Part shown: one piece after another, positions 8,760-53,911 of the stretch
Numbering within the stretch: the first letter of the stretch is position 1
Layout of the letters: each line of letters starts with the position of its first letter
NCBI GenBank assembly: GCA_027486845.1
Contig: JAIXOL010000036.1
Location: 1-64,000, forward strand
Source of the DNA: Cytophagaceae bacterium
GTDB taxonomy: Bacteria; Bacteroidota; Bacteroidia; Cytophagales; Spirosomataceae
DNA: 64,000 nt
Direction of reading: 5' to 3'
Made by a program: the position numbers and the translations under genes
The notes under the pieces: model-generated
What the model saw: only the letters and a program-made list of their open reading frames with translations
The model's database searches: none
What the model was told of the DNA's origin: nothing

Positions 8760-10103
8760 ATGCTTTTGAATACTCTCACTGCTATTTCTCCTATTGATGG
8801 CCGTTACCGCCGACAAATTGAAAATCTTGCAAAATATTTTTCTGAATTTGGACTCATTCACTACCGTGTGAGAGTTGAAATTGAATATTTTATTGCTCTT
8901 TGCGAACTTCCTTTGCCTCAACTCGAAGGTTTTGATAAAGGTTTGTATAAAAATCTTCGAGCGATTTATGAAAATTTTTCGGAAGAAGATGCACTTAAAA
9001 TTAAAGAAACTGAAAAAGTAACTAACCACGATGTAAAAGCAGTTGAGTATTTTATCAAAGATGCTTTTGAGGTTTTGGGAATCGGACAACATTCGGAGTT
9101 TATACATTTTGGCCTTACTTCGCAAGATGTCAATAATACAGCAATTCCGCTTTCATTAAAAGAAGCGATGATCATGGATGTTGTACCTGCTTTTCAGCAA
9201 ATTTTGGCAAAACTGCATGAATTGGCCGAACAATGGAAAGATATTGCACTGCTTGCACATACACACGGACAACCAGCTTCGCCTACTCGCTTAGGTAAAG
9301 AATTGTTAGTCTTCTGTGAAAGAATCGAAAAACAACTCGAAATGCTTAATGCGGTGCCTTATGCGGCCAAATTTGGTGGAGCAACGGGTAATTTCAATGC
9401 TCATCATGTGGCATATCCGCAGACCGATTGGGTGACGTTTGGGAATAGTTTTGTAAATGATTGCTTGGGGCTTTCTCGCAGTCAGAAAACTACGCAGGTT
9501 GAGCATTACGATATGTTGGCGGCTATGTTTGATGCCCTCAAACGCCTCAATACCATTTTGATTGATTTCTCTCGTGATGTTTGGACGTATGTTTCGATGG
9601 GCTATTTCAAACAAAAAATTAAAGCGGGAGAAATTGGTTCTTCGGCAATGCCTCATAAAGTCAACCCAATTGATTTTGAAAATGCTGAAGGTAATTTAGG
9701 TGTTGCCAATGCACTTTTTGAGCATTTTTCAGCAAAATTGCCGATTTCTCGTCTACAAAGAGATTTGACCGACTCAACGGTTTTGAGAAATCTGGGCGTG
9801 CCGATTGGTCATACAGTTATCGCCTTAAATTCCTTATTAAAAGGGATGAATAAACTCGAACTCAACCAAGAAGCAATCGACCATCATTTGGAAGAAAACT
9901 GGGCTGTTGTGGCCGAAGGTATTCAGACGGTACTTCGCCGTGAAGGTTTCCCGAAACCTTATGAGGCATTAAAAGAATTGACTCGTAAAAATGAAAAAAT
10001 TACCGAAAAACGTATCAAAGAATTTATTGATACCCTTGATGTAGGCGAAAAAGTAAAATATGAACTTCGACGCATTTCTCCTTTTAATTATACAGGGATA
10101 TAG
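8760..10103 (+). CDS. purB: Adenylosuccinate lyase
   Basis: The 447-residue cytoplasmic enzyme catalyses two purine-pathway steps: splitting SAICAR to AICAR and adenylosuccinate to AMP, releasing fumarate. It starts with the typical SPIDGRYR. It holds HFGLTSQDVNNTA, HTHGQPASPTRLG and the fumarase/aspartase signature SSAMPHKVNPIDFENAEGN. Length matches the E. coli-like PurB subfamily. It is followed by a strong bidirectional terminator and faces the acylase gene. Confidence 0.96.
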   Translation: MLLNTLTAISPIDGRYRRQIENLAKYFSEFGLIHYRVRVEIEYFIALCELPLPQLEGFDKGLYKNLRAIYENFSEEDALKIKETEKVTNHDVKAVEYFIKDAFEVLGIGQHSEFIHFGLTSQDVNNTAIPLSLKEAMIMDVVPAFQQILAKLHELAEQWKDIALLAHTHGQPASPTRLGKELLVFCERIEKQLEMLNAVPYAAKFGGATGNFNAHHVAYPQTDWVTFGNSFVNDCLGLSRSQKTTQVEHYDMLAAMFDALKRLNTILIDFSRDVWTYVSMGYFKQKIKAGEIGSSAMPHKVNPIDFENAEGNLGVANALFEHFSAKLPISRLQRDLTDSTVLRNLGVPIGHTVIALNSLLKGMNKLELNQEAIDHHLEENWAVVAEGIQTVLRREGFPKPYEALKELTRKNEKITEKRIKEFIDTLDVGEKVKYELRRISPFNYTGI

Positions 10104-10117
10104 GCAATTTTGAATGC

Positions 10118-10166
10118 TTGAATGATAGAGTGAGTGAATATTTATTCCCTTTATTCTATCATTCAA
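10118..10166. terminator. Bidirectional terminator between purB and the acylase gene
   Basis: A perfect 12-bp stem (TTGAATGATAGA / TCTATCATTCAA) encloses a 25-base loop between two convergent genes. Weaker TTGAATG-like copies flank it. Confidence 0.65.
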
Positions 10167-10184
10167 ACATTATATCGTTCAAAA

Positions 10185-13411: not shown

Positions 13412-13480
13412 AAAGCCCCCAACCCCAGAGGGGAGTTATTTATATGAAAGATTTGAAGCCCCTCTGGGGTTGGGGGCTTT
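13412..13480. repeat. Perfect 22-bp inverted repeat directly upstream of asd
   Basis: Arms at 13412-13433 and 13459-13480 are exact reverse complements (GCCCCCAACCCC core on the left, GGGGTTGGGGGC on the right) around a 25-base AT-rich loop. The arms are very GC-rich in an AT-rich genome. The repeat lies between asd and the cyclo-ligase gene, which share a strand, so it could end upstream transcription or shape the asd leader. It resembles CCCC/GGGG palindromes dispersed in Bacteroidota genomes. Confidence 0.9.
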
Positions 13481-14275: not shown

Positions 14276-14608
14276 ATGATTTCAGCGGAAGAAAATTTTC
14301 AAAATGAGTTTTTAAGACCAATTTTGAAAGAACAAAATGAATTATTGATTGCAGTTTTTAAGCAATATTTGGTCAAACATAAGGTTCTATTTGAAAGATA
14401 TTCGCCCGAAGACCAAGCCAATTATATAGAAAATACCATCAAAAAGGACGCACAAATACGTAATTATTTTGTTGGAATGATAATCGGGAAACTTTCAGCC
14501 GAACAATACCAAGCTTTTGTACCAATGGAAACTGAGTTGAATCGTCGAATAATAACGATGCTTGTGAAAAGAATACAGAGTCAAGTTATTTTACCACTAA
14601 GAGACTAA
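14276..14608 (+). CDS. Small helical protein of unknown function
   Basis: I do not recognise this 110-residue protein. It is predicted to be almost entirely helical and soluble, rich in Glu, Gln, Lys and Ile, with segments FLRPILKEQNELLIAVFKQY and IENTIKKDAQIRNYFVGMI. There is no signal peptide and no DNA-binding motif that I can name. Its promoter overlaps a palindromic operator, so expression is probably repressed under some condition. The last residues (LPLRD) and the stop codon are encoded by the first unit of an intergenic CACTAAG repeat, suggesting that repeat insertion replaced the original end. Confidence 0.6.
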   Translation: MISAEENFQNEFLRPILKEQNELLIAVFKQYLVKHKVLFERYSPEDQANYIENTIKKDAQIRNYFVGMIIGKLSAEQYQAFVPMETELNRRIITMLVKRIQSQVILPLRD

Positions 14609-14751
14609 GAAACACTAAGGTTATTAAGTACTTTCTTAGTATATCCTTAGTTTCTTGCTTGTGAAAAGAGTACAGAGTCAAGTTGTTTTACCACTTAGAA
14701 ACACTAAGGTTTTTAAGTACTTTCTTAGTGTATCCTTAGTTCCTAAGTGGT
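14559..14751 (+). repeat. 97-bp tandem duplication containing CACTAAG-type repeat arms
   Basis: The sequence from 14559 (TGCTTGTGAAAAGAATACAG) recurs at 14656 with few changes, giving a 97-base period. Unit one contains the last codons of the small upstream gene. Both units carry the arm motif TTTTACCACT(A/T)AG...ACACTAAGG and its inverted partner CTTAGT...CCTTAGT. Unit two forms a near-complete hairpin from ACCACTTAG (14690) to CTAAGTGGT (14751). These are the left-hand repeats of the GxxExxY remnant that follows. Confidence 0.8.
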
Positions 14752-14763
14752 TAATAATAAAAA

Positions 14764-15157
14764 ATGACGAAGAAAAGTATAAATCAATTAATATAGGTGT
14801 GCAATTGAAGTACATAAACAATTAGGAGCAGGTTTACTAGAAAGCGTATATGAATCTTGTTTTTGCCATGAATTACAAAGTAGAGGCTTTAATATTATGA
14901 GACAAATGACTGTGCCTGTAATTTATAAAAACATTCAAGTACAAGCTGAACTAAAACTTGATGTTATGGTAAATGATTCCGTAATTGTCGAACTAAAAGC
15001 TGTTGAACAAATACATCCAATTCACGAGGCACAACTTCTTACTTACATGAAGCTACTCAAAAAGCCTAAAGGTTTACTAATAAATTTCCATACAGATAAT
15101 ATTACAAGAAGCATAAAACCCTTCGTAAATGAATATTTTTCAGCATTACCTGATTAA
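14764..15157 (+). pseudogene. GxxExxY protein gene, frameshifted near its 5' end (copy A)
   Basis: An ATG at 14764 opens MTKKSINQLI, which aligns with the start of the intact-looking copy at 17711, then meets a TAG. A deletion of about a dozen bases shifts the frame. The correct frame resumes with CAIEVHKQLGAGLLESVYES, containing the G-L-L-E-S-V-Y motif that names the family. It continues through LKLDVMVND and VIVELKAVE (the putative PD-(D/E)XK-type Asp and Glu-x-Lys) to a stop at 15157. A shorter product from the ATG at 14897 would lack the GxxExxY motif. The family is small and of unknown function. Confidence 0.8.
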
Positions 15158-15159
15158 TA

Positions 15160-15231
15160 CTTAGTGAATCTTAGTTTCTTAGTGGTAAAAAAAATAAAAA
15201 ATTCACCACTAAGGAACTAAGGTTCACTAAG
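15160..15231. repeat. Right-hand inverted repeat pair beside GxxExxY copy A
   Basis: Arms of 27 bases at 15160-15186 (CTTAGTGAATCTTAG...) and 15205-15231 (...CACTAAG) are reverse complements with 2 mismatches around an AT-rich loop. The second arm matches the repeat at 14593-14619 in direct orientation. The pair begins 2 bases after the GxxExxY stop and ends 29 bases before the fadN start codon, so it occupies the fadN leader. Confidence 0.88.
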
Positions 15232-15260: not shown

Positions 15261-17669
15261 ATGAATCGTAGTATCAAAAAAGTAGTTGTTTTGGGTGCGG
15301 GCATTATGGGAAGCCGTATTGCGTTGCACTTTGCTAATATCGGAGTGGAGGTGCTACTCCTCGACATGGTTCCGAAAGAGCCAAACGATGCCGAAAAAGC
15401 AAAAGGACTCGACACCACTCATTTAGCCGTGCGAAATCGAATTGTTGGCGAGTTATTTCAAGTGGCTGTAAAGGCAAGTCCTTCGCCGATTTACAATCAA
15501 AAATCATTAAGTAGAGTAAAATTGGGCAATTTTGATGACGATATGCCTAAAATCGCTACCTATGATTGGATTATTGAAGTAGTCGTAGAACGCCTCGACG
15601 TCAAGAAAATTATCTACGAAAAAGTTGAAAAATTCCGCAAAGCAGGAACTTTGGTAACGTCAAATACTTCAGGCATTCCGATTCATTTGATGGCAGAAGG
15701 CCGTTCGGAAGATTTTCAAAAGCATTTCTGTGGAACGCACTTCTTCAATCCACCACGCTATTTGCGTTTGTTGGAAATCATTCCAACCGATAAAACCGAT
15801 AAATCGGTGCTTGATTTCTTGATGCACTACGGCGACCTATATCTTGGAAAAACAACCGTTTTGTGTAAAGATTCACCTGCATTTATTGCCAATCGTTTGG
15901 GAATTTATGCAATGGTTCAAACCATCAGAGTGGCCGAAGAAATGGGCTTGACCGTTGAAGAAGTTGACAAACTTACAAGCACGGTTGTTGGTCGCCCAAA
16001 ATCGGGTACTTTCCGACTTTCAGATGTAGTTGGTTTGGATACAACAGTGAATGTTTGTAATAACTTGATTAATGTTTTAGAAACTGATGAATCGAAAGAT
16101 GCCTTTATTTTGCCACCAACAATGGCAAAATTAATGGAAAATAAATGGCTCGGAGATAAAACTGGACAAGGTTTCTACAAAAAATCGAAAGACGAAAAAG
16201 GTAAAACGCTCATTCTTGCCTTAGATTTAAAGAGTTTTGAATATAAACCTTCGGAAAAAGTTAAGTTCGCAACCCTCGAAAGTACAAAAAGCATTGACGA
16301 TTTGAAAAAACGTTTTTCGGTTCTTTTGGCAGGAAAAGACAAAGCTGGCGAATTTTACCGCAAAACTTTCGCCGATGGCTTTCGTTACGCAACAAACCGT
16401 ATTCCAGAAATTTCGGACGAATTATATAGAATTGATGCCGCTATTTGTGCAGGTTTTGGCTGGCAAATGGGTATGTTTGAAACTTGGGATGCTATTGGGG
16501 TTCGTCCGATGATAAAAATCATGGAAGATTTAGACCTCAAACCAGCCGCCTGGGTTTATGAAATGTTAGAATCAGGCAGTGAAACTTTCTATAAAGTTGA
16601 AGCAGGAAAACGTAAATATTATGATATTCCGAGTAAATCATACAAAGTAATTCCAGGAACAGAATCGTTCATTATTTTGGACAATCTTCGTCAAACCAAC
16701 GTTATTTGGAAAAATGCAGGTTCAACAATCTTTGATTTGGGCGATGGTATTGCGGGCGTAGAATTCCACTCAAAAATGAATACATTCGGAGCGGAAGTTG
16801 TAGAAGGATTAAATAGAGCCTATGGCATTGCAGAGAAAGATTTTAGAGGTTTAGTGATTGGAAATGATTCAAACGAGGCATTTTCGGCAGGTGCAAACTT
16901 GGCGATGTTGTTTATGTTTGCAATCGAGCAAGAATACGATGAAATAAATATGATGATTGCACAGTTTCAGCAGACGATGATGCGTGCAAGATATTCTTCA
17001 ATTCCAGTTGTTACGGCTGCACATAGTTTAGCTTTGGGTGGTGGTTGCGAACTAAACCTTCATGCCGATAAAGTTGTTGCTCATGCCGAAACCTATATGG
17101 GTTTAGTTGAATTAGGTGTTGGTTTGATTCCAGCAGGTGGAGGAACGAAAGAAATGGCTTTACGTTGCTCAGATTTATACCAAACTGGCGACCCAGAATT
17201 AAATATTCTTCAAAATGCCTTTATGAATATCGCTCAAGCTAAAGTTTCGACTTCGGCACAAGAGGCTTTTGATATGGGTTATTTGAAAACCGATAAAGAT
17301 AAAATTGTATTGAATCGTAGCAGATTGATTGCTGAAGCGAAGGAAGAAGCTATCAAATTGGCCGAAGATGGCTATACGCAACCAAAGCAACGCACCGATA
17401 TTAAGGTTCAAGGAAAAGCAGGAATTGCACTTTTCAAGGCGGGTATCACGGGTATGTTGATGGGTAAATACATCACCGAACACGATGCAAAAATTGCTGA
17501 TAAATTGGCTTATGTTATTTCAGGCGGAGATTTGAGTTATCCACAAATGGTTTCTGAGCAGTATCTATTGGATTTGGAGCGTGAAGCTTTCTTATCGCTT
17601 TGTGCTGAAAAGAAAACATTGGAGCGTTTGCAAGGATTGCTTAGTGGAGGAAAGCCGCCACGTAACTAA
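15261..17669 (+). CDS. fadN: 3-hydroxyacyl-CoA dehydrogenase / enoyl-CoA hydratase, FadN type
   Basis: The 802-residue bifunctional beta-oxidation enzyme begins with an NAD-binding fold (VVVLGAGIMGSRIALHFA). The dehydrogenase domain contains GTHFFNPPRYLRLLEIIPT and CKDSPAFIANRLG. The hydratase/isomerase-like domain lies in the second half (NEAFSAGANLAML, AHSLALGGGCELNLHAD, GLIPAGGGTKEMALR). This order, dehydrogenase first, is that of B. subtilis FadN and opposite to E. coli FadB. It hydrates enoyl-CoA and oxidises 3-hydroxyacyl-CoA. fadA follows after an inserted GxxExxY element; an acyl-CoA dehydrogenase gene lies at 47.9 kb. Confidence 0.93.
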   Translation: MNRSIKKVVVLGAGIMGSRIALHFANIGVEVLLLDMVPKEPNDAEKAKGLDTTHLAVRNRIVGELFQVAVKASPSPIYNQKSLSRVKLGNFDDDMPKIATYDWIIEVVVERLDVKKIIYEKVEKFRKAGTLVTSNTSGIPIHLMAEGRSEDFQKHFCGTHFFNPPRYLRLLEIIPTDKTDKSVLDFLMHYGDLYLGKTTVLCKDSPAFIANRLGIYAMVQTIRVAEEMGLTVEEVDKLTSTVVGRPKSGTFRLSDVVGLDTTVNVCNNLINVLETDESKDAFILPPTMAKLMENKWLGDKTGQGFYKKSKDEKGKTLILALDLKSFEYKPSEKVKFATLESTKSIDDLKKRFSVLLAGKDKAGEFYRKTFADGFRYATNRIPEISDELYRIDAAICAGFGWQMGMFETWDAIGVRPMIKIMEDLDLKPAAWVYEMLESGSETFYKVEAGKRKYYDIPSKSYKVIPGTESFIILDNLRQTNVIWKNAGSTIFDLGDGIAGVEFHSKMNTFGAEVVEGLNRAYGIAEKDFRGLVIGNDSNEAFSAGANLAMLFMFAIEQEYDEINMMIAQFQQTMMRARYSSIPVVTAAHSLALGGGCELNLHADKVVAHAETYMGLVELGVGLIPAGGGTKEMALRCSDLYQTGDPELNILQNAFMNIAQAKVSTSAQEAFDMGYLKTDKDKIVLNRSRLIAEAKEEAIKLAEDGYTQPKQRTDIKVQGKAGIALFKAGITGMLMGKYITEHDAKIADKLAYVISGGDLSYPQMVSEQYLLDLEREAFLSLCAEKKTLERLQGLLSGGKPPRN

Positions 17670-17671
17670 AA

Positions 17672-17709
17672 ATTTACCACGGAGGCACGGATTTTAAGAT
17701 TTACACGGA
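17672..17709 (+). repeat. Left inverted repeat of the GxxExxY element (copy B)
   Basis: This 38-base arm beginning ATTTACCACGGAGGCAC is the reverse complement of 18156-18193 at 36 of 38 positions. It starts 2 bases after the fadN stop and ends 1 base before the GxxExxY start codon. Internally it holds two CACGGA units. Confidence 0.95.
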
Positions 17710-17710
17710 T

Positions 17711-18073
17711 ATGATTACTCAGAAATATATTAACCAGATTACTTATCAAGTTATTGTTTGTGCAATGGAGGTTCATAAGCAACTTGGGCCTGGGCTTTTG
17801 GAATCTGTTTATGAAGAGTGTATGATTGAAGAGTTGAGATTTAAAGGTTTAGCTGTTCAAGCTCAACAAAAAGTGCCTCTTTTTTATCGTGGTAAAGCAT
17901 TAAAAACAGAGTTGCGTTTAGATATTATTGTAAATGACTTAGTGATTTTAGAATTAAAAGCAGTTGAGACAATGATTCCTTTGTATAAAGCTCAATTGTT
18001 ATCTTACTTGAAATTAAGTAGCAAACCAAAAGGACTTCTAATTAATTTTCATTGTGAAAATATAAGAGAATAA
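17711..18073 (+). CDS. GxxExxY protein, PD-(D/E)XK-like, probably C-terminally truncated (copy B)
   Basis: This 120-residue member of the GxxExxY family shows VHKQLGPGLLESVYEEC with the name-giving motif. TELRLDIIVND and VILELKAVE follow, likely the Asp and Glu-x-Lys of a PD-(D/E)XK-type nuclease fold. The frame stops with TAA at 18071-18073. Continuing in frame gives LVALVTDEFSKLPKE and a second stop at 18119-18121. This aligns residue for residue with the tail of copy A, so the stop is a recent nonsense change that removes about 15 residues. The catalytic-like residues are kept. No function is experimentally assigned that I know of. Confidence 0.85.
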   Translation: MITQKYINQITYQVIVCAMEVHKQLGPGLLESVYEECMIEELRFKGLAVQAQQKVPLFYRGKALKTELRLDIIVNDLVILELKAVETMIPLYKAQLLSYLKLSSKPKGLLINFHCENIRE

Positions 18074-18155
18074 TTGGTAGCATTAGTAACTGATGAATTT
18101 TCAAAATTACCAAAAGAATAATCTAAAAATCGAAGGACAGGTTCTATAAATTTTC

Positions 18156-18193
18156 TCCGTGAAAATCTTAAAATCTGTGCCTCCGTGGTAAAT
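18156..18193 (-). repeat. Right inverted repeat of the GxxExxY element (copy B)
   Basis: The reverse complement of this 38-base arm matches 17672-17709 except at two positions. It ends 20 bases before the fadA start codon, so it lies in the fadA leader, and a fadN-fadA transcript could fold the two arms into a very long stem. Confidence 0.95.
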
Positions 18194-18213
18194 AATTAAA
18201 AGAAAACACAAAC

Positions 18214-19392
18214 ATGAACGCATATATAGTAGCTGGCTACCGCAGTGCAGTCGGCAAAGCACCCAAAGGAGTTTTTCGCTTTACTCGCCCCGACGATTTG
18301 GCGGCTGATGTAATCAAGCACCTCATGGCACAAGTGCCAAATCTCGACCCTGCTCGTGTCGATGACCTCATCGTAGGAAATGCCGTTCCTGAAGCCGAGC
18401 AAGGAATGCAAATGGCTCGTTATATTTCACTTTTGTCGTTGGGCAAGAGCGTAGCGGGTGTAACAGTAAACCGTTATTGTGGTTCGGGCGTTGAAACAAT
18501 CGCAATGGCTGCTGCAAAAATTAGTGCAGGAATGGCCGATTGTATCGTAGCGGGCGGAACAGAATCAATGTCGATGGTACCAACAACTGGTTGGAAAATG
18601 GCATTGAATTATGGTTTGGCTTCGCACCACCCAGATTATTATATTGGAATGGGTTTGACGGCCGAACAAGTGGCTCAACAATTCAATGTTACTCGTGAAG
18701 AGCAAGATATTTTCTCGTATAATTCTCATGTAAAAGCATTAGCCGCCCAAGCAGCAGGCAAATTTGATGGTGAAATTGTGCCGATTACAGTAAAAGAAAC
18801 GTATTTCGATGAAGCCACTGGTAAAAAGAAAAACAAAGAATACGTTGTAGCAAAAGATGAAGGTCCAAGAGAAGGAACAAGCGTTGAGGCTTTATCAAAA
18901 CTTCGTCCAGTTTTTGCGATGGGTGGAAGCGTAACGGCAGGAAATTCTTCACAAACTTCTGATGGTGCTGCCTTTGTAATCGTGATGTCGGAAAGAATGG
19001 TGAATGAATTGGGCTTAAAACCTATCGCACGCATGATGGCTTATGCAACAGCAGGAGTTGAGCCGCGTATTATGGGAATTGGTCCGGTGGCAGCTATTCC
19101 GATTGCCTTGAAACAAGCAGGTTTAAAACAAGATGATATTGATATTATTGAATTAAATGAAGCATTTGCAGCTCAATCTTTGGCAGTTATTAAAGAACTG
19201 GGCTTAGATATAAGCAAAATTAATCCAAATGGCGGTGCAATTGCTCTCGGTCATGCTCTTGGTTCAACTGGCGGGCGTCTGACTGTTCAGGTTTTGAACG
19301 AACTTCGCCGCCAAAACAAAAAATATGGAATGGTAACTGCCTGTGTGGGTGGTGGCCAAGGTGTAGCTGGGATTTATGAGTTGTTGAGTTAA
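18214..19392 (+). CDS. fadA: Acetyl-CoA C-acyltransferase (3-ketoacyl-CoA thiolase)
   Basis: The 392-residue thiolase performs the last beta-oxidation step, cleaving 3-ketoacyl-CoA with CoA. The acyl-accepting Cys lies in [10 protein letters not shown] (residue 89). The His of [17 protein letters not shown] and the second Cys of TACVGGGQG complete the active site. It is encoded downstream of fadN and was presumably in one operon before the GxxExxY element came between them. A strong terminator follows about 35 bases after the stop. Confidence 0.95.
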
Positions 19393-26610: not shown

Positions 26611-26745
26611 TTTCTTTTACAAGGCACAGAGTAACAAAGGCACAGTTATAAAGGCATAAAGATACAGATGTGTTTACAAAGTAGATACTTTTCAGATAAA
26701 TTAGGTATCTATTTTTTTCTATGTGCCTTTGCCATTGAGTACCTA
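26611..26745. repeat. Degraded inverted repeat of the GGCACAGAG type, no gene inside
   Basis: ACAAGGCACAGAG and AAAGGCACAG units on the left are faced about 90 bases later by TGTGCCTTTGCCATTGAG on the right, an imperfect inverted repeat. The layout recalls the arms around the GxxExxY gene at 17.7 kb, but only AT-rich filler lies between. It ends shortly before the gldG start codon. Confidence 0.5.
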
Positions 26746-45182: not shown

Positions 45183-45195
45183 TTTATAAAATTTA

Positions 45196-45301
45196 GCTAT
45201 AAGCGATATGCAGTAGGCTTTATGCTTATAGGAATCATTTCAACTTGTTTTCAACAAAAATAATTGAAGTAACTTAAAGCGTGTAGCGTAATGCTTATAG
45301 C
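45196..45301. repeat. GCTTATAGC-type repeat between plsX and fabH
   Basis: GCTATAAGC (45196-45204) and GCTTATAGC (45293-45301) are perfect inverted 9-mers. A further ATGCTTATAGG copy lies at about 45222. The unit resembles simple dispersed repeats common in Bacteroidota intergenic DNA. Confidence 0.6.
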
Positions 45302-45316
45302 TTTTTAAATAGATAA

Positions 45317-53855: not shown

Positions 53856-53911
53856 ATCAATAAACACACAAAAGGCGAAGATTTCTCTTCGCCTTTTGTG
53901 TGTTTATTGAT
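53856..53911. terminator. Very strong terminator with perfect 26-bp stem
   Basis: The arms 53856-53881 and 53886-53911 (core AAAAGGCGAAGA / TCTTCGCCTTTT) are exact reverse complements around TTTC. It follows the fabV stop on the minus strand. Confidence 0.9.

Follow-up and report, generated by a model that had tools for sequence, protein, structure and literature searches.

GxxExxY genes between inverted arms appear to form small, spreading DNA elements of a widespread, little-described kind

Results

The element in the fadN-fadA spacer

In the 64,000-nt stretch of Cytophagaceae DNA analysed here (the window), a fadN-like gene and a fadA-like thiolase gene lie on the same strand, and the spacer between them holds a short unit made of two inverted arms and one small gene:

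15261 to 17669, + strand: fadN-like gene with 3HCDH and ECH domains, ending 2 bases before the left arm
17672 to 17709, + strand: left arm of the element, a word array of ACCACGGAGG, CACGGATT and CACGGA, extending to 17667-17716
17711 to 18073, + strand: GxxExxY / PDDEXK_3 gene, 120 aa
18156 to 18193, - strand: right arm of the element, an inverted copy of the left arm (36 of 38), extending to 18149-18198
18214 to 19392, + strand: fadA-like thiolase gene, its ATG 20 bases past the right arm

A recount of the arms, 17672-17709 and 18156-18193, bore out the 36 reverse-complementary positions of 38 reported in the earlier note, together with its distances of 2 bases from the fadN stop to the left arm and 20 from the right arm to fadA. 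An inverted-repeat search extended the pair to 50 nt at 86%. The inverted-repeat score of 33.0, against a maximum of 26.5 over 1752 mispaired flank pairs, places the pairing beyond chance. Folded as RNA, the unit gives a long stem whose loop carries the gene (z = -7.26), and none of 100 shuffles reached so low a value. At the Rfam gathering threshold, ten sources yielded only a tRNA, and Rfam reported no rRNA in the window.

That a single GxxExxY gene lies between the arms also held, since the ORF at 17711-18073 matches both PF13366 (131.1 bits, cut-off 22) and the TIGR04256 GxxExxY profile (137.2 bits, cut-off 35). PF13366 is its sole Pfam family at E 0.001, and no transposase family was found for it at this level among the Pfam and TIGR profiles. 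The stop of the gene lies 16 codons short of that of the nearest homologue, and the same frame continues to 18121.

Further units in the window

A second GxxExxY element (14586-15193), now decayed, lies directly upstream of the fadN-like gene, which is thus flanked by elements on both sides. Three gene-less units elsewhere in the window are word hairpins of other families:

10103 to 10184, no strand: gene-less hairpin with GAATGAT-like heptads, S23-type words by eye
14586 to 14619, + strand: left arm of the second element, CACTAAG words
14604 to 14755, no strand: duplicated CACTAAG arm stretch in the second element (copies 14604-14655 and 14693-14744)
14764 to 15157, + strand: second GxxExxY gene, decayed near its start (longest listed ORF 14897-15157)
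15160 to 15193, - strand: right arm of the second element
26622 to 26744, no strand: gene-less inverted pair, CACAGAG / AAAGGCACA words
45195 to 45302, no strand: gene-less inverted pair, TATAAGC-like words

Most of the right arm of the second element (15160-15189) is also matched, in inverted orientation, by 15202-15231. The window also holds a perfect 22-nt inverted repeat, AAAGCCCCCAACCCCAGAGGGG, at 13412-13480 with its arms 25 nt apart; similar GGGG/CCCC stems occur in spacers of relatives, apparently as another family of spacer hairpins. At 53856-53911, in the gap between convergent ORFs, lies a perfect, terminator-like 26-nt hairpin with a 4-nt loop.

GxxExxY and S23 copies in the same genome

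The window's genome contains five PF13366 matches, all of them between inverted arms according to the repeat search. The arm words vary by copy: CACGGAG in the query, CACTAAG upstream of fadN, CGCAGATTTTTATGATT at L009, CGCAAAG at L012 and CACAGATGACACTGATT at L013. The last of these scored 33 in its flank comparison, not above the mispaired maximum of 34, and stood above the 95% mispaired-flank threshold in the larger test described below (score 16.0). Of the five genes, the one at L009 is open and the other four have suffered stops or frame loss. Arm-like sequence is present elsewhere in the genome.

The same genome encodes 11 S23 genes (23S_rRNA_IVP, PF05635), most of them enclosed by inverted arms. 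These arms are made of short tandem words, which vary from one gene to the next; 8 of the 11 genes exceed the 95% threshold.

At two GxxExxY loci the arms run into neighbouring coding sequence. At L009 the left arm (1429-1469) extends over the final codons of the gene upstream, which looks hisA-like by eye; in the relative G006 these codons differ, as if the arm had replaced the gene end. At L013 the right arm (1868-1912) appears to supply the start of the downstream CDS, the N-terminus of which differs from that in G006 by eye. Together, the two sites indicate that spacer DNA is replaced rather than merely split. Gene names such as hisA, era, pruA, aroB and ORF6N are those that we take the sequences to carry.

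Arms as a general trait of both gene families

We scored the best inverted match between the two flanks of each gene and compared it with matches between mispaired flanks. Loci with flanks shorter than 150 nt, listed duplicates and matches below 25 bits were dropped, which reduced the GxxExxY set from 159 to 146 and the S23 set from 65 to 61. Arms exceeded the 95% threshold at 112 of the 146 GxxExxY loci (null, 75 of 1752) and the 99% threshold at 82 of 146, while 34 of 146 had no significant arms; all three counts include the best 80 of at least 584 named loci, and orthologous loci of close relatives were kept, so that the loci are not independent. In named genomes, spread over many phyla, 62 of 80 loci (the best 80 of at least 584 confirmed) stood above the 95% threshold; they were found through the motif G[PAT]G..E..Y and lean towards the window's type. 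The corresponding count for the window's genome and its relatives was 50 of 66, with 63 of 91 listed places in relatives included (29 loci and 34 regions). S23 genes behaved alike, with 49 of 61 above the 95% threshold (null, 32 of 732) and 29 above the 99% threshold; within relatives, 41 of 50 passed the former. Among control ORFs of 90-200 aa from the same loci, which are open frames rather than proven genes, 1 of 234 scored above 16.5.

The arms are word arrays with a period that differs between the two families. By autocorrelation, GxxExxY arms peak at lags of 8 (z = 12.6) and 9 (z = 9.7) and S23 arms at lags of 7 (z = 20.6) and 14 (z = 15.8), arms shorter than 18 nt being left out (111 of 112 and 47 of 49 kept, respectively). 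At least two CRCNNAG words are present in 52 of 112 GxxExxY arms versus 1 of 49 S23 arms, and the arms listed commonly open with T-rich DNA and ACC[AG]C. The S23 gene at L014 is an exception to the word split, with GxxExxY-like CAAAGG-type words in its arms; the relative G006 has a GxxExxY element there (L357), and arms are possibly shared between the two kinds at this pair of loci. A study of the Coxiella 23S intervening sequence (IVS) describes tandem GACAGAT heptads near its 5' end, in numbers that vary between strains (PMC4990558), which is consistent with the 7-nt S23 class found here.

Arms follow the protein, and gene-less hairpins follow the gene

When arm types (AG, ATT or unclear) were mapped onto a tree of the 112 GxxExxY proteins, they required 20 changes versus a shuffled mean of 33.4, and none of 200 shuffles was as low; the labels, based on simple word counts, are approximate (the query, for one, is labelled ATT), and near-copies contribute to the clustering. 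In a supported clade of 18 proteins (98/93), arms are ATT in 15, unclear in 3 and AG in none. For pairs whose flanks share no homologous ORF within 2 kb, the similarity of the arms grows from 0.19 at less than 35% protein identity to 0.67 above 80% (n = 5); at 50% identity or more it is 0.288 in this set, where shuffling gave 0.245 on average and 0.259 at most. Arms and protein lineage thus go together, also at unrelated sites.

Arms also occur without a gene. The window's genome has about ten places where two arms of the CACGGAG or CACTAAG type oppose each other, their starts separated by 51-74 bp, with no intervening gene. With one mismatch allowed, a reversed-pattern control gave 16 matches against 41; many one-mismatch matches are therefore due to chance, and the test for presence across genomes relied on exact matches only. 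In this test, 296 genomes were drawn from the phylum. The exact arm pattern had 764 matches versus 67 for the control in the 151 genomes with PF13366, and 94 versus 89 in the 145 without a detected PF13366 gene, an association in which the counts ignore descent and a single strict word pattern leaves ATT-type, CGC-type and heptad words uncounted. Excluding one large gene-poor family, the figures were 763 to 65 with PF13366 and 80 to 61 without; in 58 relatives, they were 217 to 32 with a detected relative of the query protein and 19 to 16 without. Five or more matches were found in 51 genomes with PF13366 and 1 without.

These matches include gene-bearing arms, as the pattern matches 32 of 292 gene flanks. 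Of the 51 genomes, 31 had more matches than twice their number of genes and 20 did not, so gene-bearing arms should explain only part of the matches. The one genome with many matches and no detected PF13366 gene, G162, has 26, in good part in local tandem arrays, and four stretches read there had no GxxExxY or S23 profile match. At L368 (C70) it carries tandem arrays of hairpins of about 108 bp with CAC words. G162 apart, an excess of arm-only hairpins over the control is confined to genomes with a detected PF13366 gene. Of four hairpins read in G050, two are largely alike in their interiors but not in their flanks.

The GxxExxY protein

Seven residues of the GxxExxY protein (G26, G28, E31, Y34, D71, E81 and K83) are invariant in 73 sequences; the first four are part of the search pattern for the named loci, and D71, E81 and K83 are not. 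Eight of ten close pairs gave dN/dS values of 0.04-0.24, the other two giving no dS. The protein is thus under purifying selection where the gene is kept, with the predicted nuclease residues intact.

The AlphaFold2 model (pLDDT 94.2) has the order helix-helix-strand-strand-strand-helix-strand. Foldseek returned no match at E 0.001, the best being SSO0001 (4ic1; E 4.9e-3), which we take to be a Cas4, and a search by sequence found no solved relatives up to E 1. Structural realignment of the model gave Z 8.1 over 93 residues for 4ic1, 6.7 for the archaeal Hjc (1gef), 5.8 for the R2 retrotransposon, and 5.8 and 5.6 for the XisH-type fdxN excision factors 2okf and 2inb; Z values under 8 can reflect a common arrangement. 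The model thus weakly suggests that the nearest folds are PD-(D/E)XK nucleases.

Searches of defence and phage families gave no convincing match (best PADLOC E 0.011-0.023, for two proteins). The query gene had no Pfam match to Cas4 at E 0.001 and a PADLOC Cas4 E of 0.023, and the second GxxExxY copy just reaches the Pfam Cas4 cut-off (22.7 bits), with a far higher score for PF13366. Carriage on plasmids was rare: 8 of 72,556 records match, all below 60% identity.

Orientation within operons

With two ORF neighbours required within 600 bp (95 of 112 GxxExxY and 45 of 49 S23 elements), both neighbours were in sense to the enclosed gene in 76 of 95 GxxExxY and 38 of 45 S23 elements, and both antisense in 4 of 95 and 5 of 45, respectively. 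Background ORFs had both neighbours on their own strand in 106 of 226 cases. The domain begins a median of 76 nt after the upstream ORF, a distance that would leave little room for a promoter.

Turnover of the sites

The earlier note had proposed comparing the fadN-fadA junction among related genomes and looking there for target-site duplications. The spacer differs in state among the 20 genomes compared, a non-random set to which G049 and G053 were added since the S23 search had placed an S23 gene beside fadA. It holds a GxxExxY element in G000 and G005 and an S23 element in G007 and, from another family, in G049. In G053 a bare heptad hairpin is present, whereas G004 (L128) and G006 (L333) have other genes there, with no obvious word arms and one of them ORF6N-like by eye; 13 genomes have no element (26-105 bp). 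The 11 same-genus genomes, a fair set unselected for content, comprise two with GxxExxY elements, one with an S23 element, two with other genes and six without an element. The gene in G005 is 74% identical to that of the window, and its arms mix CACTAAG, CACAGAG and CACGGAG words. As the S23 elements of G007 (L096) and G049 (L139) belong to two families of the order, the spacer has been entered more than once. We considered a pure hotspot account of this spacer; it is softened by the G004 and G006 genes without obvious arms, which make the spacer look permissive in general.

Upstream of fadN, GxxExxY elements are present in G000, G007 and G010 and bare hairpins in G002 and G009, and no element was visible in the 160 bp viewed in G001, G003, G004 and G008. 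A wider comparison was made with G006, the flanks of which are 88-97% identical; of 14 gene sites listed outside the window, 12 were queried and 10 were comparable. Two of these are shared and eight differ: one S23 site holds a GxxExxY element instead, three sites are bare hairpins of other words, one is a hairpin of neither class, and three are without an element, one of them with a right-arm-like remnant. Five solo sites correspond in G006 to two heptad hairpins, a degenerate CAC-type hairpin, one other sequence and one site without a hairpin. A unit of another word family thus occupies 6 of 15 sites, compared with any such unit in about 5 of 52 window spacers by eye, a rough estimate that suggests recurrent sites. 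The sites turn over fast, and GxxExxY elements share them with the similarly built S23 elements.

No target-site duplication was seen by eye at fadN-fadA, five solo sites, eight gene sites and one pair of like hairpins, in spacers that have diverged; the relatives compared yielded no empty allele with identical flanks and no transposition event.

Discussion

The earlier note had read the unit as a compact element whose repeats serve to spread or maintain it. Relatives in which the unit is missing or other content occupies the site support that reading; the site is not constant, and the arms recur elsewhere, often as gene-less hairpins. To this the present analysis adds that S23/IVS genes are mostly armed too, that GxxExxY and S23 elements exchange sites, and that all five GxxExxY genes of the genome are armed, with different words. 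The explanation we favour, at a probability of about 0.6, is a minimal mobile element that combines REPIN-like and IVS-like hairpin features and has a predicted nuclease in place of a transposase. The GxxExxY unit and the turnover of its sites are well supported, and the role of the nuclease is one that we infer.

In outline, a pair of inverted arms, each built from a few tandem words at a spacing of 8-9 nt, encloses one small PD-(D/E)XK ORF, and the GxxExxY gene is presumably read from the host operon. The nuclease could act on the hairpin or cruciform formed by the arms and on spacers that bear hairpins; repair of a cut spacer by copying the element in would then replace spacer DNA and leave no target duplication. 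The arms would also pair in RNA, where RNase III may cut as it does in a 23S IVS, which could make an insertion into an operon tolerable.

S23 elements would have to be accommodated in such a scheme. S23 proteins are not known as nucleases, so the nuclease by itself cannot account for a shared mechanism; as S23 elements have the same build, the host or different partners may supply catalysis, and the common factor would be the word-armed hairpin. It is conceivable, though we would put it at somewhat under even odds, that GxxExxY and S23 elements are two wings of one hitherto unrecognised class of bacterial mobile DNA, the word-armed hairpin elements, in which each protein reads its own word (8-9 nt for the PD-(D/E)XK protein, 7 nt for the S23 ring), mobilises solo hairpins in trans and exchanges one hairpin in a spacer for another without target duplication, homing into spacers instead of transposing in the classical way, with the 23S IVS as the sole long-described case.

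Among the alternatives, an RNA-borne element akin to the 23S IVS fares best, and we regard it as unlikely. Its arms would serve for folding in the transcript, the unit would be excised by RNase III and copied from RNA by a hypothetical reverse transcriptase acting in trans, and the nuclease would merely open the target, as in R2. The strong RNA stem of the query unit, the R2 nuclease domain among the weak fold matches and the identity of S23 as the IVS protein, distantly like Avd of diversity-generating retroelements, all fit this route, as does the Coxiella IVS with its tandem GACAGAT heptads, which is reported to be cut by RNase III (PMC4990558). Sense orientation in operons fits it as well, but is also expected if only expressed copies keep a working gene, and the solo hairpins are symmetric and hence uninformative on strand.

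It is less probable still that ordinary spacer repeats, such as terminators or mRNA-stabilising stems, are spread by host recombination or template switching, with the small genes as passengers between the arms. Such a process could account for arms that overlap host coding ends at two sites, for the several kinds of hairpin, plain terminators included, found at one site in different relatives, and for words within an element that look homogenised, as by slippage or template switching. Passengers, however, would be of many kinds, yet a single one of the 234 control ORFs scores as the two families do; word period and word type follow the protein, and the excess of solo hairpins over control is seen, G162 apart, only where a PF13366 gene is found. 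That the unit is a host-serving defence or repair system, in which a small Cas4-like nuclease is regulated through the hairpin arms and the solo hairpins are regulated targets, is very improbable: the weak Cas4 resemblance and the purifying selection on the protein would suit it, but defence families gave no convincing match (best PADLOC E 0.011-0.023), and copies are decayed and frequently lost between relatives.

The favoured reading, a minimal mobile element with a predicted nuclease, has parallels in several known systems. REPIN/RAYT systems, as known from PMC3116915 and general background, likewise have a gene with inverted repeats, gene-less two-arm hairpins in spacers and an excess of these where the gene is present. 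The GxxExxY gene differs in belonging to PF13366 rather than encoding a tyrosine transposase, its arms are arrays of tandem words, several differently worded elements occur per genome, and a second class, S23, shares both build and sites. The likeness to the 23S IVS lies in a small ORF inside complementary arms, in tandem short words like the Coxiella heptads, in an ORF in sense to the host transcript and in sporadic presence at recurrent sites (PMC4990558). In contrast, the query element lies between the protein genes fadN and fadA rather than inside an rRNA gene, its ORF encodes a PF13366 nuclease-family protein instead of S23/IVP, its words have a period of 8-9 instead of 7, and its excision is hypothetical.

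Like MITEs and IS elements, the unit has a single ORF between terminal inverted repeats as well as copies with similar ends but no gene; it differs in that no transposase family was found and, in the diverged spacers compared, no target duplication was seen by eye. XisH, the fdxN element excision controlling factor, and archaeal Hjc are, like GxxExxY, small proteins tied to DNA rearrangement, although the fold resemblance is weak and the context different. From Cas4 the GxxExxY protein is set apart by its shorter length and by its far higher PF13366 scores. In short, the GxxExxY element behaves as a REPIN and its RAYT do and resembles an IVS placed outside rRNA, but belongs to neither kind.

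In the literature searched, which was mostly open-access and comprised titles, abstract starts and passages, we did not find GxxExxY elements, or their joining to S23 elements, described; the term 'GxxExxY' occurs in PMC8934634 and PMC12085832. GxxExxY elements appear to represent a type of small, spreading DNA element that is widespread and little described. If the interpretation given here is true, a large orphan nuclease family, PF13366, which is present in 151 of the 296 phylum genomes, would acquire a role, and the mover of DNA would be a lone protein of about 120 residues. The riddle of the 23S IVS and the S23 protein would then fall inside a general class of mobile elements, and many short spacer repeats of environmental bacteria may be explained. 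The functions of GxxExxY and S23 proteins would become directly testable, as each comes with a candidate substrate attached.
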